The position numbers and the translations under genes are program-made. 64,000 nt of DNA from Planctomycetota bacterium. Its GTDB lineage: Bacteria > Planctomycetota > Phycisphaerae > Phycisphaerales > SM1A02. The notes beneath the pieces were generated by a model, which did no database searches, was not told where the DNA came from, and was given only the letters and a program-made list of their open reading frames with translations. Location of the stretch: positions 72,582 to 136,581 of the forward strand of contig QWPV01000001.1 in the NCBI GenBank assembly GCA_003671055.1, read 5' to 3'. Positions 1-13,660 of the stretch are shown here, one piece after another. The number at the start of each line of letters is the position of its first letter. The stretch's first letter is position 1.

Positions 1-201
1 GAATCGCGTTGCGACGCAGGCACGAATCCAAACAAATCCACTTGTGGCAGCAGCAGCTGCGGAGATCGCAGCCCATGCCATGTAGATCGGAACCCTTGAT
101 CCGTAACTCAACGACGGCGACAGCCCGGAGAGATGCCAACTCATCGCGCAATACGCGATCGCGCCCACCGCAAGCGGTCCCCAAAACATCCGTCGCCTCA
201 T
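1..201 (-). CDS. Partial membrane protein, N-terminal 67 residues
   Basis: An open frame starts with ATG at 199-201 and runs without a stop off the left edge. It encodes a basic start (MRRRMFWG), then two hydrophobic stretches of about 15-20 residues (roughly residues 8-28 and 40-58). This fits an inner-membrane protein with at least two helices. I do not recognise the family. It lies downstream, in the direction of transcription, of a pfkB 3' fragment, with about 80 bases between them that hold no gene. No clear Shine-Dalgarno site precedes the ATG, which is common in this window. The reading frame and hydrophobicity support coding; the function is unknown. Confidence 0.55.
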   Translation of the reverse strand, partial: MRRRMFWGPLAVGAIAYCAMSWHLSGLSPSLSYGSRVPIYMAWAAISAAAAATSGFVWIRACVATRF

Positions 202-283
202 GCACGACGAAAGAGTCAAGGTTTTGCGCGAAGAGCGAGTTGTATGCAAATGAATCCTGTCCTCGAGAGTACCGCGCGTCCAC

Positions 284-562
284 TCACGCAATCCGCGCCG
301 CGTCTCTGAATCTCGCGTGCCGCTGCGCGATTGCTGCGGGAGTTGCGTGACGGAGTCCGTCGAGGCTGAAGCCGCCGATGGTGAAGCTCGCCATCACGGT
401 TCCCCATGTGAGCGCGTCTTGCAGCGTTGCAAAATCAGTGGAGCCCATGCGCGCGATGTGACCCATCATGCCGCCCGCGAAACTATCACCAGCACCAGTA
501 GGATCGACGACCATATCTTCGGTTGCTGGAAAGATCCAATGTGCCTGCCCCCGATTACTCCC
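284..562 (-). pseudogene. PfkB-family kinase 3' fragment (duplicate)
   Basis: Bases 286-532 match 3211-3457, the 3' end of the intact kinase gene, with five substitutions in 247 bases (three synonymous; Ala for Glu and Val for Ile). The fragment encodes the C-terminal ATP-binding part with the PfkB signature DPTGAGDSF and its own TGA stop. Similarity breaks off upstream of the FPATED segment, and the frame then meets a stop near 570. No start and no sugar-binding half remain, so it cannot make a kinase. It lies directly downstream of the PEP-CTERM-like gene, which stops at 575. It is a truncated copy, not a separate gene. Confidence 0.85.
286..532. repeat. 247-bp direct repeat, copy A
   Basis: Direct repeat of 3211-3457, offset by 2,925 bp, about 98% identical by eye. 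The left boundary falls at the stop codon of the kinase frame and the right boundary inside the coding sequence. The two copies bracket two secreted-protein genes. Confidence 0.9.
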
Positions 563-574
563 GACATCTCAATC

Positions 575-1201
575 TCACCGCCGACGACGCGGAAAGATCA
601 CCGCTCCAATCCCGATGATCGGCAGAGCGGCAGGTGCAGGAATCGTTGAAAAATACACATCGTCGACGTACCACGCAGTTGTAATCACCCGGTCAAAGTA
701 AAAGTCGGTAACGACACCATCAAACGGATCTTCGCTTCCATTTTGCCCGTTCGGTCGGTACATAGACCCAACCCACGTCCCATTGAGGTAGAAGGAATAC
801 CAATCCACCGGGGTGAAAGCACTCAACCCAACGCTCGCGAAAGCGTTCACGGGCTGCGTAAAACGGAACGCAAGTTGGATGCCGTTAGCATCTGCAAGAC
901 CACCGCCATCATGCAACATCGCTCCGGCACCTCCAGAAGTTTCGTCAAACCTCCACCATTGCGCGGGCTGCTGAACAGGAACCCTATAGTCAAGGATCAA
1001 TCCCTGCGAGATGTACTCGTCCTCATAAATACCCATTGGAGGCAGGGCAGATACAAAGTCGATTGTCCTGGTTGCGCCGGCCGCAGCCTCCCACAAACCC
1101 TTATCTTTGTACCACACGATCGACGCCTCGACAGGTTCAACACACAGGGGAATGACAACAGCAGAGCAGAGACAAGCCACGGGAAAAAATAGAGCTCTCA
1201 T
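575..1201 (-). CDS. Secreted protein with PEP-CTERM-like C-terminal sorting signal
   Basis: A 208-residue protein. It begins with a signal peptide (residues 1-26, hydrophobic core LFFPVACLCSAVVIPL). It ends with a tripartite tail: a proline/alanine motif (IPAPAALP), a short hydrophobic helix and a terminal arginine cluster. This architecture matches the PEP-CTERM-like anchors common in Phycisphaerae surface proteins. The middle is rich in Trp, Tyr and Gly, as in beta-sandwich exoproteins, but shows no domain I can name. An AGGAG-type ribosome site (GGAGAGGAA) precedes the ATG. Only 2 nt separate it from the stop of the dockerin gene, so the two genes are probably co-transcribed. Its role (exopolysaccharide-associated or cell-surface) is inferred from the tail alone. 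Confidence 0.8.
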   Translation of the reverse strand: MRALFFPVACLCSAVVIPLCVEPVEASIVWYKDKGLWEAAAGATRTIDFVSALPPMGIYEDEYISQGLILDYRVPVQQPAQWWRFDETSGGAGAMLHDGGGLADANGIQLAFRFTQPVNAFASVGLSAFTPVDWYSFYLNGTWVGSMYRPNGQNGSEDPFDGVVTDFYFDRVITTAWYVDDVYFSTIPAPAALPIIGIGAVIFPRRRR

Positions 1202-1203
1202 AG

Positions 1204-3039
1204 TTATTCCTCTCCTACAAATTGGATGATCGCGCTCATCGTTTCACACATCGCGTTCAAACAGGGTCCATCCATGGTCGGCACACTCGCGCGAAAGTCT
1301 GCGCAACAGTCATAGCCAAACGCAGCCAACGCCAGTTCGAGCCCTGCGCAGGGCGGCGCAGCCCTAGCAATTTCTGGAAGGCAAAACGTGCCCCCGCAAG
1401 GCAAGCGCAATGGGACGCGCTCGGTATCGCTCCACATCTGCAGCAAGATGGCGAGGTCTAACGCATCTACCACGCCGTTTTGGTCAAGGTCCTGCTCCAT
1501 GTGTTGAGTTGAGCCCCATACGTTGAACAACATGGACAAATCGGGTGCGCCAATGCGCCAGTCATGATTGAAATCTCCTGCCTTTCCAAAAACTGCGAGG
1601 TAGTAGCCCCGTGCGCTTGGAGCGCTCACATCGTCTCGAACGATGACGATCACCTCTCCAAGCTCGTTGATTTCATACATCTGTAAAATTTCAAAGCCCT
1701 CCGTGCCGGACGGTGTAAGTGAGCCTGCCTTCCACCCGCAGAAATCCCAGTCTGTTGCACCCGCGCAGCGCGACCAAATGATCCCTAGTGCAGGTTCATA
1801 CTTCGTCGACCAGCCGAGCACGACGTCGGTTCCACATCCACTCGGCATGTGCCGCCATCGTTGCGCCGTCGCACCGGGAAATCCATTGGGACTCGGGAGC
1901 TTCCGCGCGTGCCCTGGCTCCGAATACGGCCAGAGGGCGCCCTGTTGCCCGCATGTACCAAGATGCGGCTCGACGAAACCTGCAACCATACCGCCCTCCT
2001 GTGAGATGGAACGAACTCCGGTGATCTGACCGTCTGAAATCGAGTGAGGAAACGTCGCATCGCGTCGAAACTCAACGAGACCACTTCCATAAAATTGCGC
2101 CCCACACCAGTACGGAAATGCGCATCCGAAGATCGTTGGCCCGTCTAGCGGGCACGGCGGATGCTCTGCAAGAGACATCGGACTTGGCATGTCAAAGCTG
2201 CCAACCGGAGCCATACCGTTGACAACATCGCAAGCCCAACTGCGCAAGCCATTCACGAAGTAACTATTGAAGAAGTTTGACGGCTGCGCATCTGTAATCG
2301 TGGATGCTGCGGCACCCGTCAATCTGAACTTCGCGTTTGTTCGGAAGCCGTCACAGATCTTCGCGCCCGTGCCCACAATCTCAACCGGTTTGAGATCCGG
2401 AAATGGTTCTGCCGCCACAGCAATCGACCAGCGAAATGGAGTGGTTGCGATCGGGTCAAGATCGATCATCTCAATGTGTGGCATTGCTGCTGATGTGTGC
2501 AAGCGCCACGCCGTTGCTCGACATGTTGAACCCGTGACCTCCGGAATGCCACCACTTCCGCCTACAACCAGCCCGTCATCCGTCAGATCGAGTGCATAGC
2601 CCGGCGTCGATGCTGAGGTTCCTGCGACGTAACTCATTAAATCATGCGCACCTGCTGCAAGCCCATACGCACCCACCGGCAACCAAATGAATGGTCGCGG
2701 TACGCAGCCAACTCCGTCCTGCACAAGAAACGTTCCAACGATTTGTCCATGCGCGTTCATGGAAATCACGCCGAGTTGATCCGCGCCTGCGAGCGCTGAT
2801 GCGTACCACGCGTCTCGCATAAACGTTGGAAACTGTTGAGTCCCGCAACCGTTAAGCGAGCCCAACCGCAGCACCGGCCGTGGGTGATACACGCGAGCCA
2901 CATTTTCGGAAGGACAGGGTGGTGAAGTTTGAAGCGCCACCGCGGGCTCGCCCATTGCGAGACTGGTCCCGAATGAAACGAGCGTGAGCCAACCAATCCC
3001 TCCAAAACAAAATCCCAGAACAACTCTATTACCTTGCAT
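1204..3039 (-). CDS. Secreted dockerin / HAF-repeat protein
   Basis: A 611-residue protein with an N-terminal signal peptide (to about residue 29). The long middle contains recurring segments like MNAHGQIVGTF, LTDDGLVVGG and INELGEVIV, which resemble HAF-type extracellular repeats. Near residues 480-535 sit two EF-hand-like calcium loops, DFNHDWRIGAPDL and DLDQNGVVDALDL, the duplicated pattern of a type I dockerin. A cysteine-rich tail of about 75 residues follows. GGAGGG lies upstream of the ATG. The next gene begins 2 nt after its stop. Dockerins bind cohesins; no cohesin gene is in the window. In planctomycetes such domains occur widely on secreted proteins that are not cellulosomal, so the ligand and role are unknown. 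Confidence 0.8.
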   Translation of the reverse strand: MQGNRVVLGFCFGGIGWLTLVSFGTSLAMGEPAVALQTSPPCPSENVARVYHPRPVLRLGSLNGCGTQQFPTFMRDAWYASALAGADQLGVISMNAHGQIVGTFLVQDGVGCVPRPFIWLPVGAYGLAAGAHDLMSYVAGTSASTPGYALDLTDDGLVVGGSGGIPEVTGSTCRATAWRLHTSAAMPHIEMIDLDPIATTPFRWSIAVAAEPFPDLKPVEIVGTGAKICDGFRTNAKFRLTGAAASTITDAQPSNFFNSYFVNGLRSWACDVVNGMAPVGSFDMPSPMSLAEHPPCPLDGPTIFGCAFPYWCGAQFYGSGLVEFRRDATFPHSISDGQITGVRSISQEGGMVAGFVEPHLGTCGQQGALWPYSEPGHARKLPSPNGFPGATAQRWRHMPSGCGTDVVLGWSTKYEPALGIIWSRCAGATDWDFCGWKAGSLTPSGTEGFEILQMYEINELGEVIVIVRDDVSAPSARGYYLAVFGKAGDFNHDWRIGAPDLSMLFNVWGSTQHMEQDLDQNGVVDALDLAILLQMWSDTERVPLRLPCGGTFCLPEIARAAPPCAGLELALAAFGYDCCADFRASVPTMDGPCLNAMCETMSAIIQFVGEE

Positions 3040-3141
3040 CTGCCATCCCTCCTCATGTTGGCGGAACGCATCAACTCCAACCGTTCAACCCTTCAAGCCG
3101 TGCATGAAAACGACCCTCAGCTTCAAGCATCTACGCAAAAA

Positions 3142-3153
3142 TTGACCGGTCAA
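3142..3153. promoter_or_regulatory. 12-bp palindrome upstream of the dockerin gene
   Basis: TTGACCGGTCAA is a perfect palindrome in the 169-bp gap between the kinase stop and the dockerin start. A second palindrome, TCTCGAGA, lies at 3161-3168. They could be operator sites for the dockerin/PEP-CTERM unit. No convincing -10 element is seen, so this is tentative. Confidence 0.3.
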
Positions 3154-3208
3154 GGAGATTCTCGAGAGATTTACAGCATATCGAACAATACTCTCGGCTC
3201 CGCTTCCC

Positions 3209-4153
3209 TTACGCAATCCGCGCCGCGTCTCTGAATCTCGCGTGCCGCTGCGCGATTGCTTCGGGGGTTGCGTGACGGAGTCCGTCGAGGCTGAAGCCGC
3301 CGATGGTGAAGCTCGCCATCACGGTGCCCCATGTGAGCGCGTCTTGCAGCGTTGCAAAATCAGTGGAGCCCATGCGCGCGATGTGACCCATCATGCCGCC
3401 TGCGAAACTATCACCAGCACCAGTAGGATCGATGACCATATCTTCGGTTGCTGGAAATGCTGGCACGGCTGCAACACCTTCGCGATGCACAAGCACTGCG
3501 CCGTGTTCGCCCTTCTTCACCACAACAAACTTCGGACCGTACGCAAGAATGCGTTCGCCTGCGGTCACTGCGTTTCGCACGCCCGTCAGGAGCGCGGCTT
3601 CGCTGTCGTTGAGTACAAGTCCATCCACTTCGCCGAGCAACTTCATGAGTTCGCCGTGCGCGATGTTGATCCAGAGATCCATCGTGTCGGCGATCGCGAT
3701 CTTGCGCTGCGGGAGTTGCGTGAGCAATCCTCGCTGCACTGCGGGATGCGTGTTGCCGAGGAAAACGTACTGACTATCTGCGAACACACTCGGCACGATT
3801 GACGGCGCTTCGCCCACGACACCGAGATCGGTGAAGAGCGTCTCGCGCTCATTCATGTTCTCGTGATACTTGCCGCCCCACGCGAAGGTCTTGCCATTCG
3901 CGCGCGTTTCGAGTCCGCGCAAGTCCACATCGCGCAACCCTTCAAGTGTCGCGCGATGTTCTGCGGGCCAATCCCCGCCGACGACGCCAACGACGCGTAC
4001 TGGCGTGAGCGGACACGCTGCAGCAGCGAAGAATGCAGCGCTTCCGCCGAGTACGCGTTCGCGGCGCGCGGAGGGAGTCTCGACGGTGTCAATACCAATG
4101 GTGCCTGTGACGATGAGTGACATATGTTCGATGCGAAGCGTGGTGCGCTTCAT
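3209..4153 (-). CDS. PfkB-family carbohydrate/nucleoside kinase
   Basis: A PfkB (ribokinase-like) kinase of 314 residues. It shows the N-terminal glycine motif GGSAAFFAAA near residue 37 and the C-terminal signature DPTGAGDSFAGG, which holds the catalytic Asp and the anion hole. The phosphate acceptor cannot be told from sequence; it could be a sugar or a nucleoside. The start at 4151-4153 is chosen because CAGGAAG lies 4 nt upstream and the ATG overlaps the stop of the preceding membrane-protein gene in an ATGA arrangement, implying coupling. A later ATG at 4121-4123 (MSLIVTG) matches the usual family start but has no ribosome site. The last 82 codons are duplicated at 286-532. Confidence 0.85.
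   Translation of the reverse strand: MKRTTLRIEHMSLIVTGTIGIDTVETPSARRERVLGGSAAFFAAAACPLTPVRVVGVVGGDWPAEHRATLEGLRDVDLRGLETRANGKTFAWGGKYHENMNERETLFTDLGVVGEAPSIVPSVFADSQYVFLGNTHPAVQRGLLTQLPQRKIAIADTMDLWINIAHGELMKLLGEVDGLVLNDSEAALLTGVRNAVTAGERILAYGPKFVVVKKGEHGAVLVHREGVAAVPAFPATEDMVIDPTGAGDSFAGGMMGHIARMGSTDFATLQDALTWGTVMASFTIGGFSLDGLRHATPEAIAQRHARFRDAARIA
3211..3457. repeat. 247-bp direct repeat, copy B (inside the intact kinase gene)
   Basis: The second copy of the repeat at 286-532. It covers the 3' end of the functional kinase gene including its TAA stop. Sequence identity ends right after the stop codon on one side and at codon FPA on the other. Confidence 0.9.
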
Positions 4154-4986
4154 GCTTCCTGTTTGACGAATGATCGAGCCCAACCGAATCCGAGTGGCAC
4201 ACCGACAAGCGCGCCTGCTGCCCAATCAATCGGCGTGATGTACATCAATCGCGGAAGCGTTTGCGCGACGAGTTGATCCGCTGGCGCAGCGAGTCCGTTG
4301 AAGATGAAAAACGCTTGTCCTGCTGCTGCGGCAATGACCGGCACACACACTAAGAACACCGGCTGTGTTTGTGGCGCGAGCATGCGTCCGATGATGCCGA
4401 CAGCCATACTTCCAACGATTGCGGCGCCGAGCGCTTGGCCCTTCATCACATTCGCGACGATGAGTGAAGCGAGAATCGGTGCGGCGATGCCAGCGATCCA
4501 ACTTCGCATCGCGGACTTGCCTGCGATTGCATCAATGTCGCGTTCGTGCTGGATCGGAAAATCTGGAAGTCGTCCCGCGAAACGGAAAATCGCGAACGAC
4601 GCAACGCCGAGCAACGCTGCCCACGCGAGCGATTCAAAGGGCATCGATGCGAGCCGCGACGAACCGAACATGAGATCTTCAACATTGCCCGATCGCATCG
4701 AGAGCACACTCAGACCTGCGCCCACTGCGAAGAGTCCCACGACAGCATTCACGAGTCGACCAACAACTGCACCAATTGCGACGATGACTACGAACGCGCC
4801 GATGAGTACCGACAGCCCCAAGCCGAGGCGAGCACTGTCGGTCACGAGCGGTCCTGCAACACCGCGATCACTCACGAGTGGCGCAATCGTCAGCGCAACA
4901 GTGAGGCTCGCGAGCGCAATGCCAAGGACAAGCACCGAAATGCGCCACGGACCGGATTCCGCTGGAATGTGTGCTGCGTCATTCAT
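4150..4986 (-). CDS. Multi-pass membrane protein
   Basis: From the ATG at 4984-4986 (MNDAAHIPAESG) it encodes 278 residues with about seven hydrophobic segments, for example VLVLGIALASLTVALTIA, LIGAFVVIVAIGAVVGRLV and VFLVCVPVIAAAAGQAFFIF. It is an inner-membrane protein of unrecognised family with no charged catalytic motif. The frame stays open up to 5127, but the extra N-terminus is Cys-rich, overlaps a long dyad repeat and looks non-coding. Its stop overlaps the kinase start by 4 nt, so the two are probably translated together. It is divergent from hutH. The start is uncertain because no Shine-Dalgarno site is visible. Confidence 0.65.
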   Translation of the reverse strand: MNDAAHIPAESGPWRISVLVLGIALASLTVALTIAPLVSDRGVAGPLVTDSARLGLGLSVLIGAFVVIVAIGAVVGRLVNAVVGLFAVGAGLSVLSMRSGNVEDLMFGSSRLASMPFESLAWAALLGVASFAIFRFAGRLPDFPIQHERDIDAIAGKSAMRSWIAGIAAPILASLIVANVMKGQALGAAIVGSMAVGIIGRMLAPQTQPVFLVCVPVIAAAAGQAFFIFNGLAAPADQLVAQTLPRLMYITPIDWAAGALVGVPLGFGWARSFVKQEA

Positions 4987-5090
4987 GAGGCGGAGGAGTG
5001 TGGCGCATTCAACCCGACACTGCAAGCACGCACGCATCGCCTGACTTCCGCCGCATGCCGATTCACTCGGCAAGGCGGAGTCGAAAGCGA

Positions 5091-5127
5091 ATGCAACGAT
5101 TTGCCCGTTGCGGGCAGAATCTTGCAT
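5091..5127. promoter_or_regulatory. Extended dyad repeat in the hutH upstream region
   Basis: Two 17-nt arms flank a 3-nt centre. The left arm is ATGCAACGATTTGCCCG at 5091-5107. The right arm, read on the other strand, is ATGCAAGATTCTGCCCG at 5111-5127. Only a few positions differ, and the inner GCCCG/CGGGC pairs perfectly. It sits 48-84 bp upstream of the hutH ATG, between divergent genes, so it is a plausible operator for a regulator of histidine use. An RNA hairpin is an alternative. Confidence 0.45.
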
Positions 5128-5174
5128 GAGTGCTCAAAATAATCCCTTCTGCTAGGCTCTCAGAAGGAACAACG

Positions 5175-6695
5175 ATGAGCACTTCGATAACGACTCTCAC
5201 CCTTGATGCCGCGCCGATTTCGATCGCGGATGTCGTTGCGGTTGCTTCAGGCACACGCCGCGTTGCGCTCAGCCTGAAGGCAATAGAAGGCGTTCGACGA
5301 GCGCGCGCTGTCATTGAACAAAAGGTCGCATCAGGCAAGGCGATCTACGGGCTGAACACGGGCTTCGGATCGCTCAGTCATGTGCGCATCGAAAAGGCGC
5401 AGATCAAGACGCTGCAATCCAACATCGTTCGCTCACACGCAGCTGGTGTTGGCGAAGCGCTTCCTCGCGAGGTGTCCCGCGCGATGCTCGTTTGCCTTGC
5501 AGCAAGTCTTGCACGCGGCGCATCGGGCGTGCGTGTCGAAACGCTCGAACGCATTCTGCTTCTGCTCAATGAAGGACTCGATCCAGTTGTTCCAAGCCGC
5601 GGTTCAGTGGGCGCGTCGGGTGACCTTGCGCCGCTTGCACATGCTGCGATGTGTTTGATTGGCGAGGGCGAAGTCTTCGACGGCAACGCTCGCGTTCCAA
5701 CAGCGGTCGCTTACGCGGCGCGCGGATTGAAGCCGCTCGAACTCGAAGAGAAAGAAGGGCTCGCGCTTCTCAATGGAACGCACTTGATGGCAGGGATGAG
5801 CGCGCTCTTGCTTGCCGATCTCCACCGGCTCTTCGACGCTGCGCTCGTTGCAGGCGCACTCGCGTTTGATGCTGCGAAAGCGAGTGATTCGTTCCTCCAT
5901 CCTGCGCTGCACGCGTTGCGCTGTCAGCCGGGACAGATTGCAGTCGCCGCACGATTGCGTGCACTCACGCAGGGCAGCGCGATTCTGGAAAGTCACAAGA
6001 CGCCGTCCGATCCGCGCGTGCAAGACCCCTACTGCCTTCGTTGCATGCCGCAGGTTTTGGGCGCAGCGTGCGATGCGATTGCCTACGCGACAGGCGCGGT
6101 AGAACGCGAACTCGGCGCGGTGACCGACAACCCACTCGTCATCGGTGACGAACTCTTTTCCGGCGGCAACTTTCACGGCATGCCGATTGCGATTCCGCTC
6201 GACGTTCTTGCGATCGCAGTCTCGCACATTGCAGGCATCAGCGAACGGCGAACATTCTGGGTGCTCAGCGCCAACGATCGCTATGTCGCGCACACGCCGT
6301 ACCTCGCGTCTGAACCAGGATTGCAATCCGGCTTGATGATCGCGCAGTACACCGCCGCAGCATGTGTGAACGAAATTATCACGCTCTGCAATCCATCGAG
6401 TGTTGCGAATGTAGTGACGAGCGCGGGTATCGAGGACTACAACAGTTTCGGTCCAGCTGCTGCGTTCAAGTTGAAACAGTGCATCGCACGCGCAACAAGT
6501 GTGATCGCGATCGAAGTCCTCACGATGTGCGAAGGCATCGACGCGCACCGTCCGCTGCGCTCTTCTGTGGCGCTTGAATCCGTGCATGCACGCGTACGAT
6601 CAATCGTGCCTCGCCTCACAGGCGACCGCAGTCCGGCACCGGATATTGCTGCAATTGAAGCAATGATCATGCGTGGCGATTGCATGCCCGCATAG
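5175..6695 (+). CDS. hutH: Histidine ammonia-lyase
   Basis: HutH deaminates L-histidine to urocanate and ammonia, the first step of histidine degradation in the cytoplasm. The 506-residue length fits the family. The MIO-cofactor motif [14 protein letters not shown] is present, with the self-cyclising Ala-Ser-Gly at residues 147-149. Also present are the N-terminal YGLNTGFG active-site loop and the C-terminal HGMPIA and [13 protein letters not shown] segments. The start at 5175 follows AGAAGGA with good spacing; a longer frame from 5130 is unlikely. hutU begins 22 nt downstream, so the two form an operon. No hutI, hutG or hut regulator is in the window. Confidence 0.96.
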
Positions 6696-6717
6696 GCGTC
6701 GCGATTACACTCTGCAT

Positions 6718-8406
6718 ATGACGACGACTCTCTCAGGGACTCCTTCTGGTCCACGCACTGTGATCGCTCCTCGCGGCAATGACCGCGTCTGCTCAAGTTG
6801 GGCAGCCGAAGCGGCGATGCGCATGCTCATGAACAACCTCGATCCCGCGGTTGCCGAGCGACCAGATGATCTCGTTGTCTACGGCGGACGCGGCAAAGCT
6901 GCGCGCAGTTGGGAAGCGTTCGATGCGATGGTGGCAACGCTGCGCGGACTGAAGGTCGACGAAACGATGCTCGTGCAAAGCGGCAAACCCGTCGGCGTTG
7001 CGCGCACGACGATTGACTCGCCGCGCGTGCTCATCGCGAATTCAAATCTCGTTCCCTTCTGGGCAACGCAGCAACACTTCGATGATCTCGCGGCCAAAGG
7101 GCTCATGATGTTCGGGCAGATGACTGCCGGTTCATGGATCTACATCGGCACGCAAGGCATCGTGCAAGGAACCTACGAAACCTACGCCGAATGCGCGCGT
7201 CAACATTTCGGAGGAACACTCAAGGGCACGCTCAATGTCACGGGCGGTTGCGGCGGCATGGGCGGCGCGCAGCCACTCGCAATCACCATGAATCATGGCG
7301 TTTGCTTGATTGCGGAGATTTCGCGCGAACGACTCGCCAAGCGCGTGCATGATCGATATCTCGACGAGGTCGTTGAAGATCTCGATAGCGCGATTGATCG
7401 CGCACTCGAACTCAAAGCGAAGGGACAGGGCATTTCCGTCGGATGGCTCGGCAACATCGTCCATCTCTTGCGTCGCTTGAAGGAACGCAACGTCACGCCC
7501 GACACGCTCACCGATCAAACGAGCGCGCACGATCCACTCGAAGGCTACTACCCCGTCGACATGACGCGCGAAGCTGCAGATATTCTTCGCGCGAGCAATG
7601 CAGCCGAGTATCAACGGATCTCGATGCAATCGATGGCGGAGCATGTGCGACTCATGGTCGAGCTCATGCATCGCGGCGCGAAGACCTTTGATTACGGCAA
7701 CAACATCCGTCAGCGCGCATTCGACGCTGGCTACGCCGATGCATTCGCGTTCCCCGGATTCGTTCCCGCCTACATTCGCCCGCAATTCTGCGTCGGCCGC
7801 GGTCCCTTCCGTTGGGTCGCACTGAGCGGCGATCCGCAAGACATCAAGACCACCGATGACGCACTGCTCAAACTTTTCCCACACGATGCGGGACTGCATC
7901 GATGGATTCACATGGCAGAAGAACGCATCGCATTCCAAGGTCTTCCCGCGCGCATCTGCTGGCTCGGCTACGGCGAACGGCACAAAGCCGGACTCCTCTT
8001 CAACGAACTCGTCCGCACAAAGAAGGTGAAAGCACCGATCGTCATCGGACGCGATCACCTCGATTGCGGATCGGTCGCAAGTCCAAATCGAGAAACCGAA
8101 GGCATGCTCGACGGCACCGACGCCGTCAGCGATTGGGCCATTCTCAACTTCGCACTCTCCACCGCATCAGGCGCAAGTTGGACCAGCTTCCACCACGGCG
8201 GCGGCGTCGGCATCGGCTACTCCCAACACGCAGGCCAAGTCATCGTCGCCGACGGCACCGACGACGCAGCCAGACGCATCGAACGAGTCCTCACCAACGA
8301 CCCCCTCATGGGCATCCTCCGCCACGCCGACGCCGGCTACGACCTCGCCCGCGAATGCGCGGCCAAGCACGCGATTCAGATTCCGTGTTCGCCGCGGCTT
8401 GCGTAA
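6718..8406 (+). CDS. hutU: Urocanate hydratase
   Basis: Urocanase converts urocanate to 4-imidazolone-5-propionate using tightly bound NAD+. The 562-residue protein carries the family hallmarks: the N-terminal [14 protein letters not shown], the NAD-binding [12 protein letters not shown] near residue 180, and [16 protein letters not shown] with the conserved Cys near residue 430. [19 protein letters not shown] follows toward the C-terminus. It lies 22 nt downstream of hutH and is clearly co-transcribed. The start at 6718 aligns with the family N-terminus, although no strong ribosome site is seen. It ends 1 nt before the convergent hepT-like gene. Confidence 0.96.
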
Positions 8407-8407
8407 A

Positions 8408-8764
8408 TCATCCGCGTTCCGTCGAGCGTCCGAGTTCTTGGAGGATCGCGCTGCGAGTTGTCGGCAACGCGTTGCGCACGATCGAGTAGAGAATCCTGTG
8501 GTCGATCCCGTCATATCCATGGGAGATCACATTGCGGAGCCCGATCGATTCACGCGCGCCAGGAATTCGCGCGAAGCACTCGGGGTCGCGCCGTTCGAGT
8601 CGGCGCATCGCTTCGCCGAGGATTTCGAGCCGTCGCTCAAAGATCGCTTGGGAGTTGCGATCATTGAGAAACTGTTCGAGTGAGATACTCGCGGCTTTCT
8701 CGAGGAGATCATCGATCTGCTGCAGCGAGTCTTCGAGAATTGCCTGACGCTCATGCCGCGACAT
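8408..8764 (-). CDS. hepT: HepT-like toxin (HEPN-domain RNase)
   Basis: A 118-residue helical HEPN protein with the R-x4-H-x-Y catalytic signature at Arg77, His82 and Tyr84 (RNVISHGY). This motif defines HepT toxins, RNases neutralised when the partner nucleotidyltransferase AMPylates the Tyr in the motif. The start at 8764 (MSRHERQ) is internal to a longer frame whose first 84 codons are only the antisense of the partner gene's opposite phase. It overlaps the upstream mntA-like gene by 14 nt, the usual antitoxin-first arrangement. The toxin-antitoxin assignment rests on family and context. Confidence 0.85.
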   Translation of the reverse strand: MSRHERQAILEDSLQQIDDLLEKAASISLEQFLNDRNSQAIFERRLEILGEAMRRLERRDPECFARIPGARESIGLRNVISHGYDGIDHRILYSIVRNALPTTRSAILQELGRSTERG

Positions 8765-9065
8765 AGATTGGAACCTGAGTCGCCTCGTGGATCGCGCGCC
8801 ATCTGGGATTACGGATTCCATTGACGCTGATGACATCGACGCGACGACCGAACAGTTGCTGCGCATCAAGGTAAAAATGCACCGCGCGCATGCCGAGATT
8901 GTCGGTGTACTCGCCGAAGTCGACGAGAAGATCGAGATCGCTTCGCGCAGGATCGAACTCCCCCGCGGCGACAGATCCAACGATCGAAACTGAGTGCAAC
9001 CCGTATCGCTGCGCAAGGCTGCACAGTGCGGGAATGTGCGCAGAGATTTCCGGAGGGAGATCCAT
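8751..9065 (-). CDS. mntA: MntA-type nucleotidyltransferase antitoxin
   Basis: A minimal nucleotidyltransferase of 104 residues. It shows the Pol-beta-fold motif G-S at residues 30-31 (IVGSVAAGEFDPARSDLDLL) followed by the metal-binding Asp43-x-Asp45. In characterised HepT/MntA pairs this enzyme transfers AMP from ATP onto the toxin's active-site tyrosine. It is the first gene of the pair, with hepT overlapping its 3' end. Active-site residues are intact, so the antitoxin is probably functional. It lies between hutU and tsaC with no other mobile features. Confidence 0.85.
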   Translation of the reverse strand: MDLPPEISAHIPALCSLAQRYGLHSVSIVGSVAAGEFDPARSDLDLLVDFGEYTDNLGMRAVHFYLDAQQLFGRRVDVISVNGIRNPRWRAIHEATQVPIYVAA

Positions 9066-12217: not shown

Positions 12218-13660
12218 ATGACGATCAGGACGATCCTCTCGGCAATTCTTGCGCTTTCGAGCGTCTCGCCTTTGTTTGTTGTCTGCACGGATGCACACGC
12301 AATTCCGCAGTCAACCAACGCAACCACGAAAGCTCCCTACACGGCGGTGACGACGCAAGCTGAAACGCTCGTGCGTTCGGGACCGAGTGTGGAGAGCGCG
12401 TATCCATTCGGAAAACTTCCGCAGGGATCCGTTGTGTTTGTGAGCGAGGAGAATCTCGGATGGGCGCGCATCTCGCTCAGCGGCGAGACCTTCACGGGAT
12501 GGTTCGGATATGTCCCCGCATCCGCAGCAGCAGTGGCATCGGAAGATGGCAAGACGCTCTCGATCACTGGTCGCAGTGAAGTGCGCGCACCAAACTTCGA
12601 AGCTAGTGGCGATCCTGAGAAGAGCTTCAAGATGATCGCTCCACTCATGGATGGCGACACACTTGAAATTCTTGAAGTCGTGAAGGGCGAACGCGGATCT
12701 TTCTACGCTGTTCGTCTTCCATCGAAGGCAACTGGTTGGGTGAATGCATCATCACTTCGTCCTGCGACGAGTGCAGAGAGCGTGACTGCAACTCCGGTTG
12801 CACCTTCGCCTCGTCCAATCGCAACACCAACCGCAACGGCCCCTGCGAACACGACGGATACGACGATTGCGGATGAGAGTGGACCGCGTCCGCTTGATGA
12901 GGTTCCAACATCCATCGTGCCTGAGCTTCCTGAAGCGATCACGCTTACTCCAACTCCAACGACAACTCCAACGACAACCGCGCCGCCGATTGCTCCATTA
13001 GATCCAGCGATTGCGCGCAACATCGCAGCAGCGAAGGCGCGCGCCGCAACCTACGAAGACCTCGAGAAAATCTGGGGTAAGTTGCGCAAAGCGCCGGTGG
13101 AGACTGCTGAACTCACGCAGTTGCGCGATCGATACCTCGCGTTCGCTGAAGACACTGCCACCACACCGATCCGCGCGAATCTCGCACAAACGCGTGCGGC
13201 GCAGATCGCGCTTCGCATTGAAGTGCAGGATTCGATTCTCGAACTCGCGCAGTTGAAGGCGAAGTCGAACGCAAGTGTGGATGGCATCGCGAATCTCGAA
13301 CTCGCGCTGCTCAATCGCAAGGGATACGACGCTGTGGGTCGCCTGAATGCATCGCTCGTCTATGACGGCGAACGGCTCCCGCTGCTCTATCGTTTGATGG
13401 ATAACGTCACTGGACAAACGATCGCGTACATCGTGCCTGGATCGAGTTTCGACCTCTCGTCGATGCTTGGTTTGATGATCGGCATCAAGGGTCCAATGAC
13501 CTACGACAACGCACTTCGCCTCAACACCCTCTCGCCAAGCGCGATTGACGTGCTTTCTGGGACGCAAACGCCCGCGACCGGACCAACGCCAATGACGCCT
13601 GCGATGACGGCGACTGGCGAATCGACGCCGAGCGCGAGCGATTCTGATACCGGGAAGTGA
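12218..13660 (+). CDS. Secreted protein with two bacterial SH3-like domains
   Basis: A 480-residue protein with a signal peptide (to about residue 28). Two SH3-like modules follow: one at about residues 40-110, with TLVRSGPSVESAYPFGKLPQG, and one ending in GWVNASSLRP near residue 187. Next is a low-complexity Pro/Thr/Ala linker (about 190-265), then a helical C-terminal half of no recognised family. Bacterial SH3 modules often bind peptidoglycan peptides, so a periplasmic or wall-associated role is likely but not proven. It is divergent from the TolC-like gene. The 240-bp gap between them holds no gene and no clear promoter. The tRNA gene lies 47 bp downstream. Confidence 0.75.
   Translation: MTIRTILSAILALSSVSPLFVVCTDAHAIPQSTNATTKAPYTAVTTQAETLVRSGPSVESAYPFGKLPQGSVVFVSEENLGWARISLSGETFTGWFGYVPASAAAVASEDGKTLSITGRSEVRAPNFEASGDPEKSFKMIAPLMDGDTLEILEVVKGERGSFYAVRLPSKATGWVNASSLRPATSAESVTATPVAPSPRPIATPTATAPANTTDTTIADESGPRPLDEVPTSIVPELPEAITLTPTPTTTPTTTAPPIAPLDPAIARNIAAAKARAATYEDLEKIWGKLRKAPVETAELTQLRDRYLAFAEDTATTPIRANLAQTRAAQIALRIEVQDSILELAQLKAKSNASVDGIANLELALLNRKGYDAVGRLNASLVYDGERLPLLYRLMDNVTGQTIAYIVPGSSFDLSSMLGLMIGIKGPMTYDNALRLNTLSPSAIDVLSGTQTPATGPTPMTPAMTATGESTPSASDSDTGK

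Follow-up and report, generated by a model that had tools for sequence, protein, structure and literature searches.

Insertion of a dockerin and PEP-CTERM-like gene pair behind a pfkB-family kinase gene, with a displaced copy of the gene end, in a Planctomycetota genome

A pair of genes encoding a dockerin-bearing and a PEP-CTERM-like secreted protein has been inserted behind a pfkB-family sugar kinase gene in the Planctomycetota genome G000, where the kinase gene remains whole and a second copy of its last 247 bp lies on the far side of the inserted genes. The same footprint, comprising a whole gene, an insert and a copy of that gene's own end, recurs in this genome behind a LysM gene (contig C30), a membrane-protein gene (C1) and an M20 peptidase gene (C34), referred to here as cases 2, 3, and 4, respectively, with pfkB as case 1. 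Comparison with sister genomes suggests that the module was inserted behind pfkB after the lineage split from its sister species.

The stretch of DNA analysed (the window) comprises 64,000 nucleotides and corresponds to bases 72582-136581 of contig C1 of G000, a genome of 2.85 Mb in 100 contigs. All other genomes of the genus that were compared (G001, G002, and G003) are referred to as sisters, and G059 belongs to another genus. Locus L017 is C1:61000-80000, and a position in it equals the window position + 11582. A 100-N scaffold gap immediately precedes the window start, and the match of the first bases of the window across this gap (table 1) is probably an assembler k-mer overlap and not a biological duplication. 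The names DPP-IV-like peptidase, purM, arfB-like, rplK, zinc-ribbon membrane protein, and hisF were read by eye from translations, without a family search.

The pfkB repeat and the cassette it encloses

A repeat search of window positions 1-9000 returned a single direct-repeat family, two copies of 250 nt that are 98% identical at a spacing of 2925. Inside the gene the copies differ by 5 mismatches over 247 bp, their longest identical run is 74 bp, and a self-BLAST E value of 1e-120 excludes chance. These values agree with the first-pass annotation, which had described a 98% identical, 247-bp copy of the kinase's 3' end lying 2,925 bp away, and which had also correctly given the order on the coding strand as kinase, dockerin gene, PEP-CTERM-like gene, and kinase fragment (all on the minus strand). 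An orthologue of the kinase is present in 30 of the 31 genomes searched.

Table 1. Features of the pfkB locus (window coordinates)
Feature	Position	Strand	Remarks
Part of membrane-protein gene	1..127	.	Identical to the 127 bp before the 100-N gap (these 127 bp and the gap: G000:C1:72355-72581)
Native pfkB downstream sequence beside fragment	258..282	.	Alignment with G002 and G003
3'-terminal repeat, displaced pfkB fragment	283..532	-	Last ~82 codons and TGA stop; second pfkB match G000:C1:72868-73116
REP-like interspersed repeat exactly at the fragment's internal border	533..561	-	Core pattern 84 times in G000, 1-4 per sister genome
PEP-CTERM-like secreted protein gene, 208 aa	575..1201	-	Tail judged by eye; one G000 paralogue on C30
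Dockerin-bearing secreted protein gene, 611 aa	1204..3039	-	PF00404 over cut-off, type I dockerin; relatives at 42-44% in G003 and G059
Novel DNA between dockerin gene and intact pfkB	3040..3207	.	Unlike native downstream sequence
3'-terminal repeat, copy within intact pfkB	3208..3457	-	Stop codon TAA joined to novel downstream DNA
Intact pfkB-family sugar kinase gene	3209..4225	-	PF00294, E=1.4e-19; mechanical ORF, true start probably further in

Profile searches against Pfam and NCBIfam found no integrase or transposase match among the cassette ORFs or among six ORFs scanned in an adjoining 7.2-kb insert, bearing out the earlier remark that neither is visible. The same searches found no model match for the 208-aa ORF, and its PEP-CTERM-like assignment was made by eye. 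There is no tRNA in the 19-kb locus and there are no inverted repeats of at least 20 bp in window positions 1-9000. The cassette has a GC content of 0.554 compared with 0.582 (sd 0.012) in same-size windows from 40 unselected stretches of the genome, 1.1% of these 271 windows being lower. The adjoining 7.2-kb insert (L017 4607-11851), bounded by GTACC at both sides, is not a GC outlier (fraction below 0.115, 78 windows) and is a separate or compound event. A short tandem array (AGGAGTGCGTTGG and a 41-bp unit) at L017 10840-10972 adjoins the repeat cluster of this inserted region.

Comparison with sister species and recurrence within the genome

In each of the three sisters a single pfkB end lies close to the neighbouring peptidase gene (101, 91, and 86 bp away in G001, G002, and G003, respectively, by BLAST) and the cassette is absent, compared with a distance of about 10 kb between the peptidase gene and pfkB in G000. 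Among the 31 genomes searched the extra pfkB tail is found only in G000, second matches elsewhere being distant kinases. The lone pfkB end and missing cassette in all three sisters identify the cassette as an insertion. An old tandem duplication common to relatives, which the first-pass annotation had named as the finding that would overturn its reading, is ruled out since the relatives have neither cassette nor fragment.

The polarity of the insertion can be read from its flanks. In an alignment with the three sisters, the displaced fragment is followed by native sequence (GTGAGT...GCGGTAC) common to G002 and G003, and the TAA of intact pfkB is followed by novel DNA; likewise, a BLAST match to G003 runs ~30 bp beyond the stop codon from the fragment but not from intact pfkB. 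Native flank beside the fragment and not beside the intact gene is the geometry predicted by single-crossover (Campbell-type) insertion. At the five positions where the two copies of the gene end differ, each copy matches G001 at two, and there is no signal of an interspecies donor for the intact pfkB end.

Three further loci carry the footprint. In case 2 the full LysM gene (L022 7381-8394, on C30; PF01476) precedes a paralogue of the PEP-CTERM-like gene, beyond which the final codons and the terminator of the LysM gene occur a second time; this tail copy extends over 278 bp with 11 mismatches (96%) and no identical run above 99 bp. In case 3 the last 355 bp of the membrane-protein gene to the left of the window are repeated 2.2 kb away at 99% identity (L017 8926-9280 and 11128-11482), with three small secreted-type ORFs between the copies. 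This case is less certain because the intact copy runs into an N gap and the identical run of 227 bp exceeds 127. In case 4 a 1.9-kb insert separates the M20 peptidase gene (PF01546) from a 66-bp copy of the gene end (97%), which has native downstream DNA beside it. The case 4 site is empty in G001, where the gene is directly joined to that native DNA, and G002 and G003 lack the insert, giving case 4 the same polarity as the pfkB locus. At its start the case 4 insert repeats the initial 126 bp of a small secreted-type gene located further downstream, and its first (departure) joint is a 7-bp microhomology, GAGAGAT, found both in the gene end and in the peptide-gene start 2.1 kb downstream; an ISL3 transposase remnant and a piece of rplK (88% identical) make up the other end of the insert.

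Other repeats of G000 were set apart from these cases. A 94-100% identical duplication in L081 on C60 (2053-3685 and 7487-8892, 5.4 kb apart across an N gap) was left out of the count on account of its larger size, its integrase-core (rve) ORF and the scaffold gap; at its edge lies what appears by eye to be a truncated hisF. A repeat in L061 on C4 (1-127 and 5672-5798), in which the contig opens with the initial 127 bp of a DUF418 gene running straight into an ISL3 remnant, is possibly the mirror image, a duplicated gene start, and is suggestive but was also left out since it is cut by the contig end. L198 on C48 contains a 191-bp repeat (6821-7011 and 12549-12724, 87%), and the beginning of this repeat occurs once more, over a short length, next to the first copy. 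Direct repeats in L080, L092, and L107 were rejected as footprints, being neighbouring paralogues as judged from their translations.

Scanning for direct repeat pairs (minimum length 80 bp, minimum identity 80%, gap at least 300 bp, spacing up to 14 kb) returned 14 pairs in 38 selected stretches of G000 (607 kb) and 5 pairs in 40 unselected stretches (775 kb), rates that are not directly comparable because the selected stretches had been picked for containing repeats, the window or homologues. Among the 14 pairs are cases 1-3 together with REP arrays, pairs of paralogues, pieces from contig ends or k-mers, the C60 duplication, and a pair in L077. Two of the 5 pairs in unselected DNA are case 4, and the others lie in L142, L198, and L201. 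The sisters yielded no pairs in G001 (11 stretches, 214 kb), G002 (11, 177 kb), or G003 (11, 162 kb), and G012 yielded one 86-bp pair in 10 stretches (200 kb). One case in 775 kb of unselected DNA indicates a low rate of the footprint, and in unselected DNA the difference between one case in G000 and none in the sisters is not significant.

Members of the module family also occur outside G000. A dockerin and PEP-CTERM-like pair is present in G003 (L164 1016-3010 and 3007-3663; 42% and 31% identity) and another in G059 (44% and 35%), and on the strength of these homologues the pair is a conserved module. In G003 it sits between an arfB-like gene and purM, which are adjacent in G000, G001, and G002; since this site is empty in the other genomes of the genus, members of the module family have entered different places in different sister species. 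No gene-end copy accompanies the G003 module, so that duplication of a gene end is not an invariable feature of the module, and PEP-CTERM-like members lie inside the footprint in two of two instances in G000 and none of one in G003. In L166, at a contig end of G059 (C17), a dockerin tail and PEP-CTERM-like start are repeated at 85% identity (1-208 and 890-1097), which looks like a tandem duplication of the second module gene.

The search for the same cassette at other places, suggested by the first-pass annotation, thus brought to light the module family in G003 and G059 but no second copy of the cassette in G000. Copying from elsewhere in G000 was rejected accordingly, the only relative there being the PEP-CTERM-like paralogue on C30 (60-65% identical). 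Only two relatives of the dockerin protein were found in GTDB r220, those of G003 and G059, both diverged, and the PEP-CTERM-like protein has any match in 19 of 121 family genomes, mostly weak. Carriage by phages, plasmids or viruses was likewise rejected, with no dockerin match in plasmids, phages or viral contigs.

Possible routes of insertion

What we infer from this footprint concerns the route of insertion, the donor and any benefit of the module. Insertion was presumably not site-specific and proceeded without a dedicated enzyme, foreign DNA being captured at a gene end, and we tentatively regard as the most likely route, at somewhat under an even chance, a single crossover with a fragment that bore this gene end and whose own ends had been joined. 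A fragment comprising the gene end and the module, derived from a donor of the same species (the copies diverge by 1-4%), would have had its ends joined and would then have undergone one crossover within the gene end. The product would be an unbroken gene followed by the module, with the tail that had belonged to the recipient's gene displaced beyond it. Selection may have maintained the surface-protein module. In favor of capture we count the empty site in three of three sisters, the native flank at the fragment, the low GC content, the recurrence, the module at a second site, a precedent in Escherichia coli described below and a ComEC-type competence protein, which was found in G000, G002, and G003 and not found in G001. 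The single crossover is ranked first because of the E. coli precedent and the 1-4% divergence between copies, although later drift would explain this divergence equally well. The first-pass annotation had proposed recombination of a circular cassette carrying the gene's 3' end; insertion with Campbell-type geometry stands, but neither a circle nor a donor with the module behind pfkB was found in G000, plasmids, phages or viral contigs. Two further points count against a single crossover: it leaves the module's first arrival behind pfkB unexplained, and the patchwork insert and microhomology of case 4 fit template switching better.

Microhomology-mediated replicative template switching is therefore the main rival, a possible though less probable route. 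Replication would have departed from pfkB at the stop codon, continued on a foreign template and re-entered the gene 247 bp upstream, producing the same footprint with the tail copied twice and requiring neither a circle nor a donor homologous to pfkB. The GAGAGAT at the departure joint of case 4, and the pieces of two neighbouring genes re-used in its insert, are consistent with such a route. Against it, the window cassette has no other copy in the genome, and to our knowledge copying from incoming foreign DNA is poorly documented in bacteria.

It is unlikely that the pfkB end was duplicated in tandem first and the module inserted later between the copies, or that a larger duplication was trimmed by deletions. 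The arrangement in G059 (dockerin gene, PEP-CTERM-like gene, dockerin tail at 85%, second PEP-CTERM-like start), an apparent tandem duplication of a gene together with the end of the gene upstream of it, speaks for such a history, but two or more steps would be needed at each of four loci, and novel DNA after intact pfkB together with native DNA after the fragment fits one insertion step.

A dedicated mobile element, for example REP-like repeats with IS200-like (Y1) transposases, that moves modules and duplicates gene ends is in our estimation improbable, and we give equally little credence to its broader form, an integrase-free capture system that, via these repeats and transposases or another enzyme, adds surface-protein modules behind genes and regenerates the gene ends, so that displaced tails pile up downstream as a record of insertions. 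The REP-like family (AATCGRGGACAGGCAC) has 84 cores in G000 compared with 1-4 in each sister (a reversed-pattern control gave 0), and there are four matches to Y1_Tnp in G000 (two over the cut-off, open frames of 389-421 aa) compared with none in the three sister genomes; a REP-like core lies within 1.5 kb of three of the four Y1_Tnp genes. A core is also found at the copy border in case 3 (L017 8900-8937) and at the internal border of the pfkB fragment, so that a REP stands at a border in two of four cases. With 2 of 16 borders within 25 bp of a core, the probability of this by chance is about 0.007 if borders are non-coding, but the two borders are neighbors and not independent, both lying in one repeat-rich 10-kb region. 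The native stretch at 258-282 also contains an 11-base match to the REP-like core (TCGAGGACAGG). Further against a dedicated element, a REP stands at one end of the cassette only (533-561) with none in 3040-3207, the LysM case has no REP-like repeat within 200 bp, ISL3 remnants instead of REPs lie beside or near the copies in the LysM and C34 cases, and duplication lengths range from 66 to 355 bp. Mobile-element remnants at the borders are a tendency, not a rule.

An assembly artefact merging two strain versions of the locus in one metagenome scaffold is highly improbable. In its favor are the division of the genome into 100 contigs and, 283 bp away from the fragment, a scaffold gap showing a 127-bp overlap. 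Against it, further contigs show the pattern as well, 127-base k-mers span the pfkB and LysM repeats because their identical runs are at most 74 bp and 99 bp, and the pfkB repeat should be resolved because it lies within one contig and contains no identical run of 127 bp.

Relation to known systems and meaning

Integrases that enter the 3' end of a gene bring a replacement end. The footprint resembles their products in that the gene is kept whole and the old tail is displaced, but differs in that no integrase was found, and in having no tRNA in 19 kb, no common target sequence, and no fixed repeat length. A site-specific integrative element would be expected to carry an integrase or recombinase gene, and none was found in the insert (the cassette and the six adjoining ORFs scanned); instead of a constant attachment sequence, the repeats are different gene ends of 66, 247, 278, and 355 bp. 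A tRNA-type attachment site was rejected in the absence of a tRNA in the locus. As for insertion sequences and transposons, window positions 1-9000 contain no inverted repeats of at least 20 bp, such as would be expected at their termini, and the duplication is of 247 bp rather than short and fixed. Of the features of Campbell-type insertion, the locus has direct repeats of the crossover region flanking the insert, the outer copy beside native flank, the inner gene joined to the insert, and an empty site in relatives; no circular or end-joined donor carrying the repeat was seen in G000, plasmids, phages or viral contigs.

The closest precedent comes from E. coli transfers designed to detect homology-facilitated illegitimate recombination (HFIR), in which 56 of 60 clones had partial gene-end duplications; they measured 109-950 bp in 14 sequenced clones and were attributed by the authors to a single crossover of a re-circularised molecule (PMC3240628). 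As described there, a partial gene-end duplication surrounds the insert and no integrase takes part, as in G000, where the duplications measure 66-355 bp; the E. coli events arose by laboratory conjugation with a designed plasmid, in contrast to natural recurrent modules here (PMC3240628). HFIR usually yields deletions, according to the same account (PMC3240628). No coupled deletion in the recipient accompanies the footprint, which is instead a duplication; HFIR entails 3-10 bp of microhomology at one joint, and 7 bp are found in the C34 case. HFIR has also been proposed to account for gene displacement in the type VI effector arrays of Vibrio, where a new module likewise stands behind a conserved anchor with old gene parts shifted downstream (PMC5361080). 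Whole immunity genes and partial effectors are displaced in those arrays, whereas in G000 the anchor is whole and only a tail copy is displaced (PMC5361080). REP elements and REP-associated tyrosine transposases resemble the G000 repeats in being short interspersed repeats expanded in one genome alongside Y1_Tnp genes (PMC3733652). Those systems are marked by a GTAG or CGTC tag (PMC3733652), and the connection of the G000 repeats with the duplications is one of position only; a Y1 transposase is present in the genome, and a REP was not found at both ends of the segment.

The footprint is not described in the titles and abstracts of one paper collection searched for REPIN/RAYT with gene duplication, partial duplication at islands, and planctomycete PEP-CTERM with dockerin transfer. 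The kind of event is already known, and the evidence favors general recombination. The repeated occurrence of the footprint in this genome suggests a recurring, though probably ordinary, capture of DNA that needs no integrase. Were a dedicated enzyme to act, it would represent a novel mode of gene movement. The parts worth following up are the recurrence and the occurrence of the module at different sites in sister species. Because displaced gene tails are easy to scan for, the idea is testable across many genomes. Together the four footprints of G000, two at sites that are empty in sister species, illustrate how modules lacking an integrase enter planctomycete genomes while the target gene stays unbroken.
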